A stretch of DNA of 64,000 nucleotides. Origin: Glaciimonas sp. CA11.2 (GTDB lineage: Bacteria > Pseudomonadota > Gammaproteobacteria > Burkholderiales > Burkholderiaceae_D). Shown here one piece after another: positions 38,855-48,744 of this stretch (the stretch's first letter is position 1; each line of letters starts with the position of its first letter). The position numbers were made by a program, and so were the translations under genes. A model generated the notes under the pieces. The model was not told where the DNA came from. It did no database searches and was given only the letters and a program-made list of their open reading frames with translations. The DNA is taken from NCBI RefSeq assembly GCF_034314045.1, contig NZ_JAVIWL010000001.1, forward strand, positions 2,790,001 to 2,854,000, in the 5' to 3' direction.

Positions 38855-38867
38855 CATTTAAAAGTGC

Positions 38868-38927
38868 AATAAGCGTGCCATTAAGCGTGCCCATAAGTAT
38901 GCCAATAAGCGCGTCAATAAGTCGCTA
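38868..38927 (+). repeat. degenerate 12-bp tandem repeat, five units
   Basis: Five 12-bp units start at 38868, 38880, 38892, 38904 and 38916, with consensus AATAAGCGTGCC; the last two have diverged. They lie just upstream of the Fe-alcohol dehydrogenase gene, within its promoter region. Confidence 0.75.
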
Positions 38928-38977
38928 GACAGCGGTTCGGTCCATAATGCTGGAAGTGCTTTAAACAGGAGGTCATG

Positions 38978-40150
38978 ATGCAAGCAGCCGTTCTCAATCC
39001 ATTTAGTTTCGACACCGTGGCGCACATTCATTCTGAGCCTGGTGCGACCAAGCGTCTCGGCGCACTCTTGACGCAACGCTTTCCCGCGGCGAAATGTGTG
39101 CTGATCGTCACCGATAGTGGCTTTTTATCTACCGGTCTGGTTGATCCAATTGTGGCCAACGTACGCAGCGCCGGTCTAACGGTACAGATTTTTTCCGAAG
39201 TAGTGGCCGATCCACCTGAAGCCGTAGTGTTACAGGCGGCTGCTTTCGCGCGACAGCATCAGATTGATGTGGTGATCGGATTGGGCGGTGGTAGTTCTAT
39301 GGACGTCGCCAAACTGATCGCTGTGTTAGCCGGAGGAGCGCAAGCACTTGATACGATGTATGGCATCGGTAATATCAACGGTCATCGCCTGCCGCTGGTG
39401 CAGATTCCGACGACCGCCGGGACGGGATCAGAGGCAACCCCGATTGCGATTGTGACGACCGGCGAGACGACCAAAATGGGCGTCGTTGCGCCGCAACTTT
39501 ATGCCGATCTGGCGTTACTGGATGCCGAATTGACGCTCGGCTTACCATCGCACATTACTGCTGCTACCGGCATCGACGCCATGGTGCATGCGATTGAAGC
39601 TTACACCAGCAAGGTGAAGAAAAATCCACTATCAGATATGCTGGCGCGGCAAGCCCTGACGTTGTTATGGAATAACATTCTTCCAGCGTGCAGAGATGGC
39701 CGCAATTTGGCCGCCCGACAAGCCATGCTGCTGGGGGCGCTTTTAGCTGGGCAAGCCTTCGCGAATGCGCCAGTAGGTGCGGTGCACGCGCTGGCCTATC
39801 CGATTGGCGGCATTTTTCATGTTCCGCATGGACTATCGAACTCTTTAGTGTTGTCGCATGTTTTGCGTTTTAACGCGCCGATTGCAGCGCCGCAATACGC
39901 AGAGCTGGCCGACATCATCGCGCCATCTGCAAGCGGCAGCGCTGAAGCACGTGCCGAGACCATGATTATGGCAATGACGAGGCTGGCCCAAGAACTAGGG
40001 ATTGAAACGCGGTTGCAGCAAGTTGGGATTAAGGCGACTGATCTTGATCGTCTGGCGGACGATGCAATGCTGCAAACACGACTGCTAGGCAACAACCCAC
40101 GCGAAGTTACCCGGGCTGATGCGCATGCCATTTATAGCGCTGCATTATAA
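38978..40150 (+). CDS. iron-containing alcohol dehydrogenase
   Basis: The 390-residue protein belongs to the group III metal-dependent alcohol dehydrogenases. The NAD-binding loop is GLGGGSSMDVAK; IPTTAGTGSEAT follows. Metal-ligand His residues are in MVHAIEAYTS and in HALAYPIGGIFHVPHG. It should oxidise an alcohol or 4-hydroxyacid (or reduce the aldehyde/ketone) with NAD(H). AGGAGG lies 5 nt before the ATG at 38978; the ATG at 38975 is too close to it. It is a separate unit with a strong terminator. Confidence 0.92.
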   Translation: MQAAVLNPFSFDTVAHIHSEPGATKRLGALLTQRFPAAKCVLIVTDSGFLSTGLVDPIVANVRSAGLTVQIFSEVVADPPEAVVLQAAAFARQHQIDVVIGLGGGSSMDVAKLIAVLAGGAQALDTMYGIGNINGHRLPLVQIPTTAGTGSEATPIAIVTTGETTKMGVVAPQLYADLALLDAELTLGLPSHITAATGIDAMVHAIEAYTSKVKKNPLSDMLARQALTLLWNNILPACRDGRNLAARQAMLLGALLAGQAFANAPVGAVHALAYPIGGIFHVPHGLSNSLVLSHVLRFNAPIAAPQYAELADIIAPSASGSAEARAETMIMAMTRLAQELGIETRLQQVGIKATDLDRLADDAMLQTRLLGNNPREVTRADAHAIYSAAL

Positions 40151-40361: not shown

Positions 40362-41582
40362 TTATTTCCAGAGTGAGCATTTTGATTCTGCTTTGGTGGT
40401 GAATGCCTGATCGCCTGGAATCGTTTGAATGACTTTGTAGTAATCCCAAGGATATTTGGATTCTGCTGGCGTCTTGACTTGCATCAGGTACATCTCATGG
40501 ACCATGCTGCCGTCTGGACGGATCTCACCATTTTTGGCGAAGAAGTCATTAACTTTGGTTTTGCGCATTTGCGCCATGACTTTCTCACCATCGTCAGTAC
40601 CGGCGGCTTTAACCGCATTCAGATAAAACATGGTTGCTGAATAATCGGCGGCATGTAGCATCGATGGTTCTTTCTTTTCCTTGGCAAAATATTTTTTCGC
40701 CCAAGCGCGGCTTTCTTCATTTTGATCCCAGTACCAACCGTCGGTCAGGTACATGCCTTGGGTCAGCTTCAGACCGAGAGAATGCACATCGTTGATAAAC
40801 ATCAGAAGACCGGCCAGCTTCATGTTTTTAGTCAAACCAAATTCGTTGGCGGCCTTGATCGAGTTAATCGTATCGCCACCAGCGTTTGCCAAACCTAGAA
40901 TTTGTGCCTTGGATGCTTGGGCCTGTAACATGAATGAAGAAAAATCGGCCGCTGAAAGGGGATGCTTGACTTCACCTAACACCGTACCACCGTTGGCTTT
41001 CACCACCGCAGATGTATCTTTTTCCAGTGACGCGCCAAACGCATAATCGGCGGTCAAAAAGTACCATGATTTACCACCTTGCTTAACGATTGCCGAACCT
41101 GTGCCTTTTGCCAGCGCCACGGTGTCATACGCATAATGAATGGTGTAAGGAGTGCAATCTTCATTGGTCAAACGGGCAGTGCCACCACCGATGGAGAGGA
41201 AAGGTTTTTTCTTTTCTGCCGCGACCTTGGCCATGGCCAGACTGGTTGCTGAATTGGTGCCACCAATCAACATGTCGACGCCTTGCTGATCGAACCACTC
41301 GCGTGCTTTGCTAGCCGCAATATCAGCTTTATTTTGATGATCAGCGACTATAAATTCAATTTTTTTACCGTTCAGCGTTCCGCCGAAATCGGCAATTGCC
41401 ATTCGGATGGCATTGGCGCCACCGGGGCCATCGATATCTGCATACACGCCGGATAAGTCGGTAATGAAACCGATTTTAACCACGTCGCCTGAAATTTGCG
41501 CTGAAGCCGGACTGATCAACCCGGCCGTAGCCAGGGTGACGAATGTGGCAGCTAATATCTTCATTTTTGGTTTGATTTTCAT
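40362..41582 (-). CDS. branched-chain amino-acid-type ABC transporter substrate-binding protein
   Basis: The 406-residue precursor has a signal peptide (ILAATFVTLATAGLISPASAQ). A LivK/AmiC-type periplasmic binding fold follows (VVKIGFITDLSGVYADIDGPGGANAIRMA), with GGTNSATSLAMAKVA and HAADYSATMFYLNAV. It binds a small organic or amino acid in the periplasm. GGAGAAGAC precedes the ATG. No permease or ATPase genes are adjacent. It is the next gene after the lva-like operon on the same strand, but element C separates them. Confidence 0.9.
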   Translation of the reverse strand: MKIKPKMKILAATFVTLATAGLISPASAQISGDVVKIGFITDLSGVYADIDGPGGANAIRMAIADFGGTLNGKKIEFIVADHQNKADIAASKAREWFDQQGVDMLIGGTNSATSLAMAKVAAEKKKPFLSIGGGTARLTNEDCTPYTIHYAYDTVALAKGTGSAIVKQGGKSWYFLTADYAFGASLEKDTSAVVKANGGTVLGEVKHPLSAADFSSFMLQAQASKAQILGLANAGGDTINSIKAANEFGLTKNMKLAGLLMFINDVHSLGLKLTQGMYLTDGWYWDQNEESRAWAKKYFAKEKKEPSMLHAADYSATMFYLNAVKAAGTDDGEKVMAQMRKTKVNDFFAKNGEIRPDGSMVHEMYLMQVKTPAESKYPWDYYKVIQTIPGDQAFTTKAESKCSLWK

Positions 41583-41801: not shown

Positions 41802-41958
41802 TAGAATTTACACAAAACCATCCCAACAACGGGCTTGCTAACCCTGCCGACGACGACAGTGTGCTAGTACCGGGCCACGCTGGCCGGGCCACGCTGGCCG
41901 GGCCACGCTGGCGGTTAGGAGAGCACAACGCAGTTGGGGCGATTTTGCGTAAGTCCTA
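41802..41958 (-). mobile_element. MITE-like element C
   Basis: A 157-bp non-coding element: left end TAGAATTTACACAAAACCA, right end on the reverse strand TAGGACTTACGCAAAATCG. The right 49 bases match element B and the partial copy at 14600 (40 of 49 identical to each). TTA flanks both sides. Inside are three exact copies of a 14-bp unit (41871-41912), as in element B but with a different sequence. The right end abuts the stop codon of the SDR gene. Confidence 0.7.
41871..41912 (-). repeat. 14-bp tandem repeat in element C
   Basis: CGGGCCACGCTGGC occurs three times without change (41871-41884, 41885-41898, 41899-41912). Confidence 0.95.
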
Positions 41959-42750
41959 TTACAAACTGCTGCATAAATGGCCACCGTCGACCACGATTTC
42001 CGAACCTGTCATATAACGACCTGCATCGGAAGCCAGCAACAGCAATGCGCCATCCAAACTTGAACATTCTCCGAAGCTGCGTGAGGGTATTCGTGACTTG
42101 AGCTGATCGCCAGCCGGACTGCGTAAAAATTCTTCATTTAACTCGGTCACAATATAGCCCGGAGCAATCGCATTAACCCGTATTGCGTAGCGGGCCAGTT
42201 CCAGCGCCATGGAGCGGGTGAGATGACTTAATCCCGCTTTCGCTGCACAGTAAGGGCCGACGCCACCTGAAACGCGCTCTGCGAGGATAGAGGTCACGTT
42301 TATTATGCTGCCGCCACGGTTGAAACCGACCATGCGCTGGGCTGCTTCCTGTGCCAAAATCCATGCACCTTTGAGGTTGGTGTCGATGATGGCGTCCCAA
42401 TCGTCATCGTCGTACTTTAAGACATTTTTAGTGTTGCTGACGCCCGCATTGTTGACGACAATATCGAGTCGGCCGCACGTCTCAACGGTGGCATCAAGAC
42501 ACGCCTGTATTGAGTGACGACGGGTGACGTCAAGTGCAATTGCATGGGCTTTACCGCCGTTGGCTTCGATTTCCGCGACCAGTGTATGCAGCAGATCAAT
42601 GCGTCGGGCGGTGACCATAACCTCAGCACCAGCGGCAGCAAGCGTCACCGATAGATGTCGACCGATGCCGCTGGAAGCGCCGGTAACCAACGCGACGCGG
42701 CCACTGAGGTCAAAAATGCTCATAATCGATTTAACCGAACTATCAGTCAT
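41959..42750 (-). CDS. SDR oxidoreductase, LvaD-like
   Basis: The 263-residue short-chain dehydrogenase has TGASSGIGRH (NAD(P)-binding), NNAGVSNTKN and the catalytic YCAAKAG, with VDGGHLCSSL at the end. In the Pseudomonas putida levulinate pathway the SDR LvaD reduces levulinyl-CoA to 4-hydroxyvaleryl-CoA; the operon context suggests the same kind of role here. The ATG directly follows the acyl-CoA dehydrogenase stop. An internal ATG ten codons in (MSIFDLSG) is an alternative start. Confidence 0.88.
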   Translation of the reverse strand: MTDSSVKSIMSIFDLSGRVALVTGASSGIGRHLSVTLAAAGAEVMVTARRIDLLHTLVAEIEANGGKAHAIALDVTRRHSIQACLDATVETCGRLDIVVNNAGVSNTKNVLKYDDDDWDAIIDTNLKGAWILAQEAAQRMVGFNRGGSIINVTSILAERVSGGVGPYCAAKAGLSHLTRSMALELARYAIRVNAIAPGYIVTELNEEFLRSPAGDQLKSRIPSRSFGECSSLDGALLLLASDAGRYMTGSEIVVDGGHLCSSL

Positions 42751-43917
42751 TTAATTCTCCGGTGACCGCAGCATAATTTTTTTAGCCAGACTCATCCGAT
42801 GTATTTCGCTCGGACCATCGTAAATACGGAAAGCGCGCACATCGCGGAAGATGCGTTCGACGATGGTTTCACCAGTGACGCCTCGCCCACCGAGGATTTG
42901 GACGCAACGATCAACCACGCGCCAGATGGCTTCGGAGCTGATGACCTTGGTCATGCTGGATTCGACGTTACCGCGACCGCCGCCGTCAAGTACATCAGCG
43001 CAATGCCAGATCGCCAGTCTGGTTGTATGCATATCCATCTCGTTATCTGCCAACATAAAACCGACGCCTTGATGATCGCCTAGCGGTTTTCCGAAGGATT
43101 GCCGGGTGCGCGCGTAGTCGCAGGCGATATCGTGGGAGCGTTGCGCGGCACCTAGCCAACGCATGCAATGCGTCAGGCGCGCCGGTGCCAGGCGGATTTG
43201 TGCATAGCGAAATCCTTTGCCGATTTCGCCCAAAATGTCGGTCGCCGGTATCCGCAGATTTTCGAAACGGAGTACTTGATGACCGCCAGCAAAGCAGCTG
43301 TCGAGAGAATCCATGGCGCGCTCGATGATAAATCCCGGACGGTCGGTGTCGGTCAGAAACATGGTGGCTGAACCGTCTTCCATTTTCGCCATGATGATGG
43401 ATACACTCGCACCTTCAGCGCCAGTGATAAGCCATTTGTGACCATTGATCACATAGTCGTCACCATCTCGCACCGCTGTGGTGGCGAGCATTTGAGGATC
43501 GGAACCAGCACCATCCGGTTCACTCATCGCAAAGCAGGAACGGGTTAAACCTTGAACCATTGGTACTAGCCAGCGTTCTTTTTGTGCTTCGGTAGCCACC
43601 ACTTCCATCAGATGGACATTACCTTCATCAGGTGCATGGATGTTTAATGCAACCGGGCCAAGTGGCGAATAACCTGCCTCTTCAAACACGATCGCTTTTT
43701 CGATATGCGAAAGACCCAGGCCGCCCATTTTTTTCGACGCATGGGGCGTGAGCAAACCATGCGCCCGAGCTTTCTCGATCAGCACTTGCCGCAGTTCTGC
43801 ACTTGGGCCATGCGGCGACTGACGTGGATCGTTCTCCATCGGAATAATTTCTTCGGCAATAAAGCGCCGGGTTTTCTTCTGCAAAGCCAGCAGATCTTCG
43901 GGAATACTAAAGTTCAT
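42751..43917 (-). CDS. acyl-CoA dehydrogenase, LvaC/ACAD10-11-like
   Basis: The 388-residue flavoprotein has the acyl-CoA dehydrogenase domains in order: helical N-domain (MGGLGLSHIEKAIVFEEAG), FAD-binding beta-domain (CFAMSEPDGAGSDPQ, INGHKWLITGA) and C-domain ending RIYDGPSEIHRMSLAKKI. It clusters with a phosphotransferase gene, as in LvaA/LvaC and human ACAD10/11. There the dehydrogenase-type domain removes phosphate from 4-phosphoacyl-CoA to give an enoyl-CoA. That reaction is inferred from the operon. AGGAA precedes the ATG. Confidence 0.9.
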   Translation of the reverse strand: MNFSIPEDLLALQKKTRRFIAEEIIPMENDPRQSPHGPSAELRQVLIEKARAHGLLTPHASKKMGGLGLSHIEKAIVFEEAGYSPLGPVALNIHAPDEGNVHLMEVVATEAQKERWLVPMVQGLTRSCFAMSEPDGAGSDPQMLATTAVRDGDDYVINGHKWLITGAEGASVSIIMAKMEDGSATMFLTDTDRPGFIIERAMDSLDSCFAGGHQVLRFENLRIPATDILGEIGKGFRYAQIRLAPARLTHCMRWLGAAQRSHDIACDYARTRQSFGKPLGDHQGVGFMLADNEMDMHTTRLAIWHCADVLDGGGRGNVESSMTKVISSEAIWRVVDRCVQILGGRGVTGETIVERIFRDVRAFRIYDGPSEIHRMSLAKKIMLRSPEN

Positions 43918-43992
43918 CTTGTTATTCCTATCGTAAAAAATTGTGTCAATACCTGCTCAATGCGCCTGAATGTAAGCGCAGTTGGGATCGCC

Positions 43993-44745
43993 TTAGTGGG
44001 CTTGCGTATAGGCCTGGTATATTTTTTCCATGACTGTGAGATTGCTATCGGATTTTGATAAATCATATGGCGTCAGATTAACGGTCCTGACCAGACGACG
44101 TATTACCTGATCACCAAGCATATCGATATCGATAATATTGACGCAGGCGGTATCTTGCTCCAACGCAGACAATCCGCTCAGACCGCAGCCGATGGCCCAC
44201 CCAAGAAGAACGCGATTGACGCCATCGTGACTGGCAATGAGCAAACTGTTCCAATCCGGCTCGGCCAGAAAAAGGAGAAATTGCTCCACAACGCGGCGCT
44301 CAAATGCGACCCATGCTTCGCCGCCGATAAACTGCCCATTTGTGCGGTTTGCCAGTTCGTAGGCATAGCCCATTTCCGCCGACTGTTCTGATGTTGGAAT
44401 GTCTGATAACCGGCCCGCCCTGATCTCGCGTAATGATGCTGTTTCCTGGATGTCGAGGCCGCGCCCTGCGACTAATAGATCCAGCGTTTGCCGCGCGCGC
44501 GGGTAGTCTGAACAAACTGCGCGATCCAATGGTAACGGCTGCAACATTTCGGCCAGTTTTTCAACTTGCTGCACGCCTAGTGTGGATAGCGCTACTGTGC
44601 GTGGATCAAGCGGTTTTCCATCATCGCTAAAATAGCGCACGTCACCATGACGTACCAGATAACAGCGACGCCGGCGAATTGCGTGCACTGACGTCTCCGA
44701 CGACGGTGTTAATGTATTTGATATCTCCATAGACAGTTTATCCAC
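43993..44745 (-). CDS. histidine phosphatase family protein in the lva-like operon
   Basis: The 250-residue protein has the histidine phosphatase catalytic motif YLVRHGDVRYF near residue 30. DYPRARQTLDLL and a late catalytic His in LIASHDGVNRVLL follow. It should remove phosphate from a small molecule through a phosphohistidine. Its place between the DUF6285 and acyl-CoA dehydrogenase genes, where 4-phosphoacyl-CoA is expected, suggests it acts on a pathway intermediate or side product. The GTG at 44745 overlaps the preceding stop; an ATG at 44730 is possible. Confidence 0.85.
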   Translation of the reverse strand: MDKLSMEISNTLTPSSETSVHAIRRRRCYLVRHGDVRYFSDDGKPLDPRTVALSTLGVQQVEKLAEMLQPLPLDRAVCSDYPRARQTLDLLVAGRGLDIQETASLREIRAGRLSDIPTSEQSAEMGYAYELANRTNGQFIGGEAWVAFERRVVEQFLLFLAEPDWNSLLIASHDGVNRVLLGWAIGCGLSGLSALEQDTACVNIIDIDMLGDQVIRRLVRTVNLTPYDLSKSDSNLTVMEKIYQAYTQAH

Positions 44746-45139
44746 GGTGAATTGCTCGCGGATTGGAGATCGCCAGCTTGGCCAGGGTAATCTCTGTCAG
44801 CGCTGTTATTAACGCGTCTTGTTTAGTATCGGTGGTATCAAACTCTCCAGCGCGGATAGCGAGACACAATGTACGCTGGTCTTTTGCGATTTTCTCTGCA
44901 ATAGTGGATGGAGAGATGCTGCTATCGGTCTGCGTGCTGCCGACTAGCTGACTTAATATGTCCAACTCCAGATGGTTGGTGCTGGCACCTAGCGCTAGCT
45001 CACGACTGGCAATGCGCATTGCATTGGCAATCATTCTGACTTCGTAGTGCAGTCCTTCCGGCAGGTTCGGCAAAATATTTTGCAGCAACGCGTCGCGTGC
45101 GGTTGTCAACAGTTCTCGTGCATCTACTTGCTTATTCAT
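44738..45139 (-). CDS. DUF6285 protein, LvaB-like
   Basis: The 133-residue helical protein begins with a helix-forming segment (ARELLTTARDALLQNILPNLPEGLHYEVRMIANAMRIASREL, read as a run of helices) and matches DUF6285. In P. putida the small protein LvaB is needed with the kinase LvaA to phosphorylate 4-hydroxyvaleryl-CoA. Position right after the kinase gene (8-nt overlap) supports the same role here. It has no catalytic motif of its own and is likely a kinase subunit. Confidence 0.8.
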   Translation of the reverse strand: MNKQVDARELLTTARDALLQNILPNLPEGLHYEVRMIANAMRIASRELALGASTNHLELDILSQLVGSTQTDSSISPSTIAEKIAKDQRTLCLAIRAGEFDTTDTKQDALITALTEITLAKLAISNPRAIHRG

Positions 45140-46196
45140 CGTGTGCCCCTTTTGTCAGAGCCAGGATTTCACGTTCCAGGTCTGGCAGCATGCGACCGGT
45201 CAGAGCGAGTTCTAAAGATGTCTGTTGGCCGGATAAATGACGGTCTGCTTGTTGTAGCGCAATAATGGCCCATCGTAAATGCGCCATGACTTGCCAATAC
45301 GTCAGATCGCGGCGTGTTACGACCATGTCGGATACCGTGGCATATCCGCGTAAAAAGTCATCAATGTCACCGACACCGCCGGCTTCACGTTGCGGGGCGA
45401 CAAAACGCCAGCACCTGGCGGTAAACCAGCCGATGTCTTCCCGTGGATCACCCCAGCCTGTGAATTCCCAATCGAGTAAGCCGCTCAATGCGCCGTCGTG
45501 AATCATGTAGTTTCCGGTGCGGTAATCCCGATGAAGCAAACAAATAGGGGCAACTGACGGACTGTTGAGTTCGCACCAGCGCAAGCCCCATTCCAACACC
45601 GGTGCAGATGCATTAAGTGCATCCAGATAACTTCGGTAGGCGGCAATGGTGGCGAGTGCCGGATTAAGGGCTGGCGGTGGTAAAAATGCGAGATCGTCAT
45701 TCGGTGGTTTGATCGTATGCAAGCGTGCCATGTTGGCGCCGAGTTGTTCGACCAATGCAGAGCGATCAGGGACGAGAGCGTCATTGCCGGTGATGCGGTG
45801 TCCGGCCGCCACGCCCGGCACACATTCCATGAGGAAGAAATCGCGTCCGATGATGCTCCGATCCTGACAGCACCACAAAACCTTCGGAGCCTTCACGCCC
45901 GCCTGGTATGCCACACGCAATACGGCAAACTCTTGCGCCCGACTGAGACTGACAGGAACGCTGGACAGTGCGTCTGTGCGTAATACCCAACGCTGACAAC
46001 CTTCGTAGGCACCACCGCTGACATGGGCAACGAGAAGCCAGTTCTCTTGTATTGCTCCACCTGAAAGTCGTTCGAGTTGCGTGATACGTACTTCCCTCGC
46101 GGCAGTCATCGCGCAAAGGTAATTTGTTAGTTGATCCTGTGATTCTGTTATTTCGCCTGAAGAAACGAGGGCTGCCTTATTGTTACTAGTTGTCAT
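45132..46196 (-). CDS. phosphotransferase (APH-fold kinase), LvaA-like
   Basis: The 354-residue protein has the aminoglycoside-phosphotransferase/choline-kinase fold. The catalytic loop is LLHRDYRTGNYMI, the metal-binding Asp is in LLDWEFTGWGDP, and the N-terminal lobe has RLSGGAIQENW. Relatives are LvaA and the kinase domain of ACAD10/11, which phosphorylate the 4-hydroxyl of 4-hydroxyacyl-CoA. It is first in a five-gene operon that runs phosphotransferase, DUF6285, histidine phosphatase, acyl-CoA dehydrogenase, SDR. A sigma54 promoter lies 75 bp upstream. Confidence 0.88.
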   Translation of the reverse strand: MTTSNNKAALVSSGEITESQDQLTNYLCAMTAAREVRITQLERLSGGAIQENWLLVAHVSGGAYEGCQRWVLRTDALSSVPVSLSRAQEFAVLRVAYQAGVKAPKVLWCCQDRSIIGRDFFLMECVPGVAAGHRITGNDALVPDRSALVEQLGANMARLHTIKPPNDDLAFLPPPALNPALATIAAYRSYLDALNASAPVLEWGLRWCELNSPSVAPICLLHRDYRTGNYMIHDGALSGLLDWEFTGWGDPREDIGWFTARCWRFVAPQREAGGVGDIDDFLRGYATVSDMVVTRRDLTYWQVMAHLRWAIIALQQADRHLSGQQTSLELALTGRMLPDLEREILALTKGAHDE

Positions 46197-46270
46197 GTTT
46201 TACGTGCTCGCTTGTTCAAATAGTCGATGTCTGCGACATCAGAGTTTCATGAAGGCTAATACGCGAATAA

Positions 46271-46286
46271 TGCAAAGGGCGTGCCA
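46271..46286 (-). promoter_or_regulatory. sigma54 promoter of the lva-like operon
   Basis: On the minus strand the sequence is TGGCACGCCCTTTGCA, essentially the consensus: TGGCACG, four bases, TTGCA, with GG and GC ten bases apart. The predicted start is near 46260, giving a 64-nt leader before the phosphotransferase ATG. The divergent sigma54 activator gene at 46573 is the obvious regulator. Confidence 0.92.
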
Positions 46287-46424
46287 GATTAATTGGGAAG
46301 TAAAATGATTGCATAAGGGAAATTATCCACATAAAGAAAGATAGGATTTCCTCTGAGGAAGCACGTTCTTATTTTTTCTACAATACACCTATTCGCTGTG
46401 AATGTAAGGCGTCTTTTAAGTGTG

Positions 46425-46515
46425 AGTTTCAAACTATTGATTAACATATAGTGATTTTTTGTATCGCCTGAATATGTGTCATATTTGAAAAATAATGTTT
46501 CAAATTTGCGATACA
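46425..46515. promoter_or_regulatory. inverted-repeat cluster, putative activator binding sites
   Basis: Three perfect inverted repeats lie 140-245 bp upstream of the sigma54 promoter. They are AGTTT-C-AAACT (46425-46435), ATTTGAAA-N7-TTTCAAAT (46483-46505), and an outer pair TGTATCGC (46460-46467) with GCGATACA (46508-46515). The TTTCAAA/TGTTTCA half-sites resemble those upstream of prpD. Distance and orientation suit enhancer binding by the activator encoded at 46573. Confidence 0.6.
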
Positions 46516-46572
46516 CTGAAATGCCAGAATCAATTAGCGTGAATTGATTAAAAGGCTATTTAGTCAAATGCC

Positions 46573-48744
46573 ATGTCAGCAACTATGCGAAATACTATGT
46601 TTAACTCTTCTGTCGCCGCCATCTCCCCCGCTTCAGCCATCACTTCCTCTTATCGTCCGCAAGTCGTGGTGCTGATCAGTCACTTGCGACGCCCTGATTT
46701 TCCTAGTCGGCTGGCACAAGTGGTACAAGAGGTCATGCCTGCTTATGAAGCCAATGCCCGTATTCAAGTTGTCGATACGGCCCTTTCGGATGCTTTGCAG
46801 ATTGCGCGTGAACTTGAGAAGAACAACGCTGTAGATGTTTTTGTGTGTGCCAGTGCGACTGCAGCCTATCTGCGAAAACGTCTCTCCAGCGCCGTAATCT
46901 CGATGCGCGTGGGCGGACCGGATTTATTGCGCACACTGGACCAGGCCCGTATTGTCTCGCCAAAAGTGGCGATTCTCAGCTATCGAAGGATTAATGCGGA
47001 TCTCGACAAAATGGGGCCGCTGTTCACTGTACAAATTCGGCAAGAAAGTTACACCACATTGGAAGAGGCGAGGCGCATTGTTCAACGCCTGGCGGTAGAT
47101 GGCTATAAGGTGCTGATCGGTTCTTCGTCGACTACGGATCTGGCAAAAGAAGCGGGTATCGAAGGTATCTTGTCGTTGACAACAGATGCCGTGCGAAAAG
47201 CGCTGGACGACGCATTGGCGATATGTCGTAGCCAGAGAATTGAGGTGGTTAAGAGTCAGCGACTTAACGTCGTTCTACAACATTTGACTGACGGCGTCAT
47301 CGCGGTTGATAGCAAAGGCGATGTACAGTCGATTAACCCGTCAATGTTACGGCTTCTCGATGTGAGTCTGGAATGGGCGCAAGGACGACCGATTAGTTCC
47401 GTTGCTCCGGGATTGGATGTAACCGACGTTCTACGCACAGGAATTAGCGAAGAGAATCGGGTAATTTTGATCAGTCATAAGTCAGGCGTCAGGCCAGAGA
47501 ATAAGCTCGGTGAAAAGCCAAATGAAAAGATCGGTACTTTCGGAGACGACAAAGTAAGCAATAAATCGGGCAATACGCTTAGTAATCGTACGGTGATCGC
47601 TAACATCATGCCGATTCATGAGGACGGAATACTGACTGGAGCGGTGCTGACCTGTCAGGAGATGACGGCAGTGCAGCGCGCAGACCGACGTATTCGTTCT
47701 GCTACACGACCTAGCCAGTTTACGGCCAAATACCAGTTGGATCAGATAAATGGGCATTGCCCCGAAATTCGTGAAGTAGTGCGTCTCGCTCAGCGCTATG
47801 CCAGTACCGATTCAACCATTCTGGTGACGGGAGAAAGTGGAACCGGAAAGGAACTCCTCGCGCAAGGTATTCATAATGCGAGCCGCCGTCATCGTGGTCC
47901 ATTTGTCCCGATCAACTGTGCGGGCTTTCCTGAGACGTTAATTGAAAGCGAATTGTTTGGTTATGAAGAGGGCGCTTTTACTGGCTCACGCAAAGGTGGG
48001 AAGCCTGGTTTGTTTGAAGCAGCGCATACCGGCACGGTATTTTTGGATGAAATAGGCGATATGCCGGTTTTTTTACAAACGCGGCTACTCCGCGTTTTGC
48101 AAGAACGTGAAGTGTTACGTCTGGGGGCCACAGAGCCGATCCCGATTGATATTCGGATTGTGGCGGCCACGCATTGCGATCTTCGTCAGCGAATACGCGA
48201 AGGGCGATTCCGTGAAGATCTGTTCTACCGATTGAATATTTTGCGTCTGGAGGTACCATCCTTGCGCGAAAGAAAAGCCGATATTCCAGTTATTGCACGT
48301 AGCGTATTGCAGCATATGATTGCGCGTTCGGATAAGCCGATACAGATTGATTTGTTGCTTGAAGCACTCACACCTTATCTGCAAGAATATCACTGGCCAG
48401 GCAATATTCGGGAGCTTGAGAATATTATTGAACGTGCGGCATTATCGGTCGGTGATTTGGCCCAAGGTCGCGGTATTGACCAACACTGGCTGCGTAGTCT
48501 GGTCCCGGAGTTTTTTGAAAAGTCAGCCAGGATAGATTTTACAGATGGTATAGAGGGGATATCAACAGTAGGATCTGTCCCCGCAGTGTCTGATTTGCGC
48601 TCTCTAAGCAAAGCCGCAGAAATTTCGCATATCAAACAGGTACTCGACGATTGCGATGGCAATCTGGAGAGTGCAGCTCGCCAATTAGGCGTAAGTCGAT
48701 CAACCTTGTGGCGGCGCTTGCGTTCCGGTCGGATAGTGGAATAG
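46573..48744 (+). CDS. sigma54-dependent activator with PrpR-type sensor and PAS domains (LvaR-like)
   Basis: The 723-residue protein has an N-terminal PrpR-type sensor domain (about residues 30-215) and a PAS domain (about 225-390). The PAS region is interrupted by a Lys/Asn/Ser-rich insertion (near residues 300-340). The AAA+ domain has GESGTGKE, GAFTGS and GTVFLDEIGDMP, and the C-terminus is a Fis helix-turn-helix (NLESAARQLGVSRSTLWRRL). It should activate the divergent operon when an acid or CoA-related effector binds. It resembles LvaR in context; the effector is unproven. The start could also be one of the next ATGs at 46585 or 46597. Confidence 0.9.
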   Translation: MSATMRNTMFNSSVAAISPASAITSSYRPQVVVLISHLRRPDFPSRLAQVVQEVMPAYEANARIQVVDTALSDALQIARELEKNNAVDVFVCASATAAYLRKRLSSAVISMRVGGPDLLRTLDQARIVSPKVAILSYRRINADLDKMGPLFTVQIRQESYTTLEEARRIVQRLAVDGYKVLIGSSSTTDLAKEAGIEGILSLTTDAVRKALDDALAICRSQRIEVVKSQRLNVVLQHLTDGVIAVDSKGDVQSINPSMLRLLDVSLEWAQGRPISSVAPGLDVTDVLRTGISEENRVILISHKSGVRPENKLGEKPNEKIGTFGDDKVSNKSGNTLSNRTVIANIMPIHEDGILTGAVLTCQEMTAVQRADRRIRSATRPSQFTAKYQLDQINGHCPEIREVVRLAQRYASTDSTILVTGESGTGKELLAQGIHNASRRHRGPFVPINCAGFPETLIESELFGYEEGAFTGSRKGGKPGLFEAAHTGTVFLDEIGDMPVFLQTRLLRVLQEREVLRLGATEPIPIDIRIVAATHCDLRQRIREGRFREDLFYRLNILRLEVPSLRERKADIPVIARSVLQHMIARSDKPIQIDLLLEALTPYLQEYHWPGNIRELENIIERAALSVGDLAQGRGIDQHWLRSLVPEFFEKSARIDFTDGIEGISTVGSVPAVSDLRSLSKAAEISHIKQVLDDCDGNLESAARQLGVSRSTLWRRLRSGRIVE

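Follow-up and report, generated by a model that had tools for sequence, protein, structure and literature searches.

Glaciimonas sp. CA11.2 carries a predicted levulinate (lva) operon that includes a histidine phosphatase gene, within the 64,000-nucleotide stretch of contig NZ_JAVIWL010000001.1 analyzed here (hereafter the window). Five tightly coupled genes on the minus strand diverge from a sigma54 activator gene, and open reading frame (ORF) coordinates and Pfam matches placed all six ORFs where a first-pass annotation, made from the sequence alone, had put them. The first gene encodes an LvaA-type kinase of 354 aa, predicted to be a 4-hydroxyacyl-CoA kinase of the APH fold (45132-46196; Pfam APH, 136.4 bits). 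This is followed by genes for an LvaB homologue of 133 aa (44738-45139; Pfam DUF6285, 74.6 bits), a branch 1 histidine phosphatase of 250 aa with a GTG start (43993-44745; His_Phos_1, 113.5 bits), an LvaC-type acyl-CoA dehydrogenase (ACAD) with an aspartate in the motif YDGPSEIH (42751-43917), and an LvaD-type short-chain dehydrogenase (SDR; 41959-42750; adh_short_C2). The kinase and DUF6285 genes overlap by 8 bp, as do the DUF6285 and phosphatase genes; the phosphatase and dehydrogenase genes are separated by 75 bp and the dehydrogenase and SDR genes directly abut. The plus-strand gene (46573-48744) encodes an LvaR/PrpR-type activator of 723 aa with PrpR_N, PAS, Sigma54_activat, and HTH_8 domains. 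There is no lvaE-type CoA ligase gene inside the operon.

Sequence comparisons identify this cluster as a phosphatase-bearing form of the lva operon. Our reference, used in place of the operon of Pseudomonas putida KT2440, was the lva operon on the P. aeruginosa plasmid p12939-PER, which has the lva gene order and a small gene named lvaB by NCBI. Identities to this operon were 59% for the kinase (92% coverage), 42.5% for DUF6285, 78% for the dehydrogenase (LvaC), 67% for the SDR (LvaD), and 53% for the regulator. In a quick tree of 104 rows, the kinase was placed among lva-type kinases. A profile of seven related dehydrogenases gave ACAD11 (2wbi) as its best PDB match, and the aspartate of YDGPSEIH aligned with that of DGPDEVH in ACAD11; by analogy with other ACADs and on the alignment made here, we take this to be the position of the catalytic base. 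On the identities and the tree, we reject a placement of the kinase and dehydrogenase outside the lva clade, and the levulinate-type operon recognized in the first-pass annotation is upheld by kinase, small partner, dehydrogenase, SDR, and regulator that all look like orthologues of annotated lva genes.

The lvaRABCDE(FG) operon of P. putida KT2440 shares with the window the order kinase, LvaB/DUF6285, aspartate-bearing dehydrogenase, and SDR, together with a PrpR-like sigma54 regulator (PMC6692424; PMC11342911; PMC12440821). In contrast, the window has a phosphatase gene between lvaB and lvaC and its operon lacks lvaE, lvaF, and lvaG. A catalytic aspartate is described for ACAD10 and ACAD11 (PMC11342911; PMC12440821), and also for LvaC (PMC12440821).

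The small partner was examined separately. The annotated LvaB of p12939-PER matches Pfam DUF6285 at 85.3 bits (cut-off 28.1) and, by this sequence match, DUF6285 is LvaB; the work thus ties to LvaB a family that our literature search did not find in papers. The protein is predicted to form a helical bundle (mean predicted local distance difference test score, pLDDT, of 94.3), and a fold search with the model gave no PDB match at E ≤ 0.001. Kinase and DUF6285 form a single open frame in seven loci (L064, L072, L074, L090, L094, L157, and L159), and these natural fusions support LvaA-LvaB acting as one functional unit. Among 80 named loci anchored on the kinase (the best 80 of 583 relatives confirmed from at least 597 matches, and so biased towards close kin), DUF6285 is a gene of its own in 78 and part of a kinase fusion in two.

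A sigma54 promoter precedes the kinase gene. The site TGGCACGCCCTTTGCA (46271-46286, minus strand), described as almost perfect in the first-pass annotation, is in fact a perfect -24/-12 match (TGGCACG-CCCT-TTGCA). Allowing up to two mismatches, the window holds no excess of this pattern (12 occurrences, compared to a mean of 14.0 in shuffles), so the weight of the promoter comes from its perfection, position, and conservation. We compared 35 loci with a divergent regulator, some of them mutual copies and the window included, with 400 random 750-bp pieces drawn from the same loci. The best site within 750 bp around the kinase start had at most one mismatch in 19 of the 35 loci and 18 of the random pieces; the corresponding counts at up to two mismatches were 33 and 87. 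A second perfect consensus in the window (38865-38880, minus strand) lies inside degenerate AATAAGCGTGCC-like repeats and is directed away from the operon and from any fitting gene; this match is probably due to chance.

An inverted repeat, TTTGAAAAATAATGTTTCAAA, at 46484-46504 (strand-neutral) is a candidate binding site for the activator. A resembling dyad occurs upstream of the kinase in Glaciimonas immobilis (L057 and L105, one region), L114, L120, and L125, and the pattern was not found in the remaining 29 of the 35 divergent-regulator rows. The regulator itself is 53% and 58% identical to the regulators of two lva operons. It scores 519.2 with the NCBIfam PrpR model TIGR02329, above the cut-off of 499.2; the regulator from the annotated lva operon also passes, at 502.6.

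The first-pass annotation had read the absence of lvaE as a sign that the substrate may differ from levulinate. The absence from the operon stands, but we rejected the conclusion drawn from it. G. immobilis has lvaE beside the regulator gene, the genome of the window encodes elsewhere a CoA ligase 50% identical to lvaE, and growth on levulinate persists in P. putida after deletion of lvaE, as relayed in PMC6692424. Given this dispensability, lvaE was not counted among the genes that define lva operons. The CoA ligase elsewhere in the genome is probably a paralogue, because it is no closer in sequence to the lvaE of G. immobilis.

The phosphatase appears intact. All 30 operon copies compared, near-copies among them, share residues R32, H33, R83, E107, and H173 (window numbering), whose roles are presumably those known for the histidine phosphatase superfamily. 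The model (pLDDT 93.6) best matched putative and known alpha-ribazole phosphatases, a riboflavin-pathway phosphatase, and RosC in the PDB, and lva-type phosphatases have a conserved C-terminal stretch peculiar to them. We predict from the intact active site that the enzyme is catalytically competent, and the completeness of this site makes action on a phosphoacyl compound plausible. None of the 120 homologues listed, out of 126 (0.55-1.75 of the query in length), was fused to other domains. We also considered whether the phosphatase co-varies with the kinase more than the dehydrogenase does (distance correlations of 0.94 vs. 0.76 across 28 loci) and rejected this, since the values were nearly equal once six outliers were removed (0.93 vs. 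0.91; 22 loci), indicating joint inheritance and nothing more.

A phosphatase in an lva cluster is not new, and neither is a role much like the third activity proposed for it in the first-pass annotation. The levulinate-associated cluster of P. citronellolis LA18T, published in 2019 (PMC6692424), has the order seen in the window, with lvaR divergent from lvaA, a histidine phosphatase gene, lvaC, and lvaD; unlike the window, it has lvaE2 and transporter genes beside lvaR. It shares an 11-kb region with the two genes showing the strongest increase on levulinate, and the authors suggest that the phosphatase may dephosphorylate 4-phosphovaleryl-CoA (PMC6692424). That paper reports no lvaB in the cluster. 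Our literature search found it to be the sole paper pairing levulinic acid with a histidine phosphatase; among the papers listed by wider searches, none of the others on levulinate or ACAD10/11 used this term, which did occur in three on different subjects (PMC10512309, PMC5757984, and PMC10855836). The window fits the LA18T form, with the phosphatase between lvaA(B) and lvaC. Nine loci have the LA18T layout, with transporter, ligase, and regulator genes on the opposite strand, eight in Pseudomonas and one in a Paucimonas metagenome-assembled genome (L109, L110, L111, L113, L114, L119, L120, L125, and L133). All nine carry both DUF6285 and the phosphatase; the DUF6285 profile matches each, and Pfam confirmed L109 and L111.

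A genome search for DUF6285 genes next to histidine phosphatase genes, as the first-pass annotation had proposed, recovered the pair repeatedly. The phosphatase is present in 25 of the 80 named loci, in every case immediately after DUF6285, and a phosphatase of another subfamily in one (L148). Stutzerimonas has a full lva operon with the phosphatase in the same slot; the p12939-PER operon is without it. Two P. putida-type operons (divergent regulator, lvaE downstream) have the phosphatase, both with a Stutzerimonas-type kinase. P. japonica has an operon of the LA18T layout as well as a P. putida-type one (L125 and L127). G. immobilis L105 has ligase and regulator genes opposite, no transporter match, and no phosphatase. 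The searches of the Pseudomonas genus and, below, of the class scored part of the first-look candidates per genome. Among 298 Pseudomonas-genus genomes, there were 13 strong phosphatase matches (at least 171.9 bits; next 64.4), 10 of them in a kinase cluster and one beside another APH-family gene; DUF6285 was found in 24 genomes, with the phosphatase adjoining in 10. Across the family of the window, seven of 195 genomes have the kinase and three of these the phosphatase. The phosphatase also occurs in Thermus, Azospirillum, Thauera, and Aromatoleum. Two Glaciimonas congeners (G813 and G832) have the operon without the phosphatase and only weak, generic matches elsewhere, and in two others (G752 and G790) no kinase was found at the threshold used.

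The kinase tree implies at least 10 changes of phosphatase state, seven of them forced by starred branches, in a count that wrongly scored L177 as lacking the phosphatase and the Azotobacter remnant L100 as bearing it; the 80 named loci were recounted. The phosphatase is a long-standing, often missing member of the operon, not a local addition. We could not derive from this tree whether the state in Glaciimonas reflects gain or loss.

Several individual loci show further arrangements. L100, on a plasmid of Azotobacter salinestris, holds a decayed phosphatase remnant between lvaB and lvaC (1729-1994), and also a second kinase gene with an identical protein accession; the small gene after this second copy is shorter but continues to match the DUF6285 model. 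In one P. putida genome, a gene of the phosphatase family lies away from any kinase cluster (L250, 9213-10031), and the lva operon of that genome (L251) has no phosphatase gene. At L253 (7406-9119), a family member directly follows an APH-family gene unlike LvaA, which is itself preceded by a gene that, by eye, resembles an FAD oxidoreductase.

A second phosphatase subfamily occurs beside related genes. In Azoarcus KH32C, the corresponding slot is occupied by a phosphatase from a different, distant subfamily (24% identity), in which serine replaces the second histidine in 33 of 33 sequences. Its plasmid relatives comprise 39 records; a phosphotransferase gene adjoined in six of the eight opened, and an ACAD11-type dehydrogenase was scored in the cluster for five of those six, while L285 and L286 have neither gene. 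The Ideonella dehydrogenase scored 543 bits to an uncharacterized mycobacterial entry (4hr3), 454 bits to ACAD11, and 142 bits to the next kind; for the Ideonella kinase, two bacterial entries scored 267 and 187 bits and ACAD11 scored 181 bits. The subfamily was found in 25 of 369 class genomes sampled, and at 18 of these 25 loci such a kinase or dehydrogenase is encoded no more than 1.5 kb away, compared to none of 25 control loci with generic phosphatases. The 18 comprise 13 with a kinase (10 strong; three partial at an edge plus dehydrogenase) and five with a dehydrogenase alone, some partial; seven loci have neither. Plasmid loci L282, L284, and L287-L289 served to build the models used, KINx and ACADx (L283 for KINx as well), and these loci match by construction; this does not apply to the 25 class-sample loci. 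Our literature search, which left most subscription journals uncovered, found no link of this subfamily with kinase or dehydrogenase genes, and we report its linkage to ACAD11-type genes as new.

Mammalian ACAD10 and ACAD11 share with these systems kinase and ACAD chemistry on 4-hydroxyacyl-CoAs and the catalytic aspartate, and ACAD10 adds a phosphatase-type domain. The first-pass annotation had offered ACAD10 as an enzymatic parallel, which proves a poor one. The ACAD10 domain is a HAD-type one whose motif is incomplete; its phosphatase activity was negligible, and it seems to hold back the kinase (PMC11342911). The window protein, in contrast, belongs to the histidine phosphatases by both family and fold. 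A phosphatase-fold partner seems to have been recruited repeatedly, as two histidine phosphatase subfamilies and the degenerate HAD domain of ACAD10. More speculatively, 4-hydroxyacyl-CoA kinase/dehydrogenase systems could have acquired such a partner as a recurrent third component on at least three occasions and from different sources. Its shared task would be to edit the phospho-acyl-CoA step or hold it in check, through hydrolysis in lva operons and through binding or inhibition in the serine subfamily and ACAD10; we raise this tentatively.

We lean towards a reading in which this lva operon serves the breakdown of levulinate or related 4-oxo/4-hydroxy acids and the phosphatase is an off-route side enzyme, hydrolyzing those products of LvaAB that the dehydrogenase leaves unused. 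This scheme draws on the homology, gene order, promoter match, active-site residues, and kinase linkage described above, and on kinase and dehydrogenase chemistry published for relatives; from these we infer the induction and the substrate and role of the phosphatase. The LvaR-type activator and sigma54 would switch the operon on. An acyl-CoA made by a CoA ligase encoded elsewhere would have its 4-keto group reduced by the LvaD-type SDR, and LvaAB (kinase plus DUF6285) would phosphorylate the resulting 4-hydroxyacyl-CoA. The LvaC-type dehydrogenase would then eliminate the phosphate to give an enoyl-CoA for beta-oxidation. The phosphatase may act on phosphoacyl-CoA that is in surplus or of the wrong isomer, or on the free phosphoacid, and would thereby protect CoA and phosphate pools; in mammalian cells, a free 4-phospho-acid has been measured alongside its CoA ester (PMC11342911). 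That its active site is intact speaks for catalysis and sets it apart from the HAD domain of ACAD10 (PMC11342911).

Several observations weigh against an off-route hydrolase in the pathway. Neither phosphatase subfamily is present in 54 of the 80 named loci, 15 of the 17 P. putida-type operons lack the phosphatase, and it was in none of 31 opened DUF6285 loci (from 50 phylum-wide rows outside the genome of the window). Two of the 13 strong Pseudomonas relatives have no kinase gene in view, and both fold and sequence are closest to alpha-ribazole phosphatase. A phosphatase acting on a central intermediate would also create a futile cycle unless it were selective. Its absence from many operons indicates that the pathway runs without it; repeated among close relatives, this absence also fits a side enzyme whose role is helpful yet dispensable.

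The suggestion in PMC6692424 would instead put the phosphatase on the main route, dephosphorylating 4-phosphovaleryl-CoA in place of, or together with, LvaC, and the gene does sit between those for kinase and dehydrogenase. However, hydrolysis should give back 4-hydroxyacyl-CoA, the same operon already encodes an LvaC-type enzyme with its aspartate, and the step would be missing from those 54 named loci; we regard a main-route role as very improbable. It is less improbable, though still unlikely, that the protein restrains the kinase as a regulatory partner with no relevant catalysis. The ACAD10 precedent (PMC11342911), the adjoining kinase and DUF6285 genes, and the subfamily lacking the second histidine beside ACAD11-type genes would fit such a role, but the catalytic residues are whole in all 30 lva-type sequences, unlike the ACAD10 domain. 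The phosphatase might also serve another metabolite, such as alpha-ribazole phosphate, and merely share the promoter. Its best PDB and NCBIfam relatives are of the CobC type, with which it shares fold and catalytic residues, and the two Pseudomonas relatives lacking a kinase in view are compatible with this. Set against this reading, the protein falls far under the CobC cut-off (NCBIfam TIGR03162; 66.8 vs. 162.9 bits), has its own C-terminal stretch, is linked to the kinase and DUF6285 in lva clusters, and coexists with four other His_Phos_1 matches in the genome; we doubt that it serves such a metabolite.

The comparison made here sharpens the 2019 suggestion by contrasting the intact phosphatase found in lva operons with a relative, encoded beside ACAD11-type genes, in which the second histidine is missing. 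The contrast bears on the function of the ACAD10 HAD domain in mammals and on the build-up of phospho-intermediates in engineered levulinate pathways.

Beyond the operon, a search of viral contigs led nowhere. A branched-chain-type periplasmic binding protein gene (40362-41582, minus strand) lies downstream of the SDR gene and codirectional with it, and holds that position in two further Glaciimonas genomes (93% and 86% identity); its product is perhaps an uptake protein that substitutes for LvaF/G. An iron-type alcohol dehydrogenase gene (38975-40150, plus strand) lies between a major facilitator superfamily (MFS) gene and the binding-protein gene. No counterpart was found by tblastn (E ≤ 1e-15) in the stretch of G. 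immobilis where the MFS and binding-protein genes adjoin. Between the binding-protein and SDR genes, at approximately 41870-41914, a GGGCCACGCTGGCC-like unit occurs as three direct repeats.

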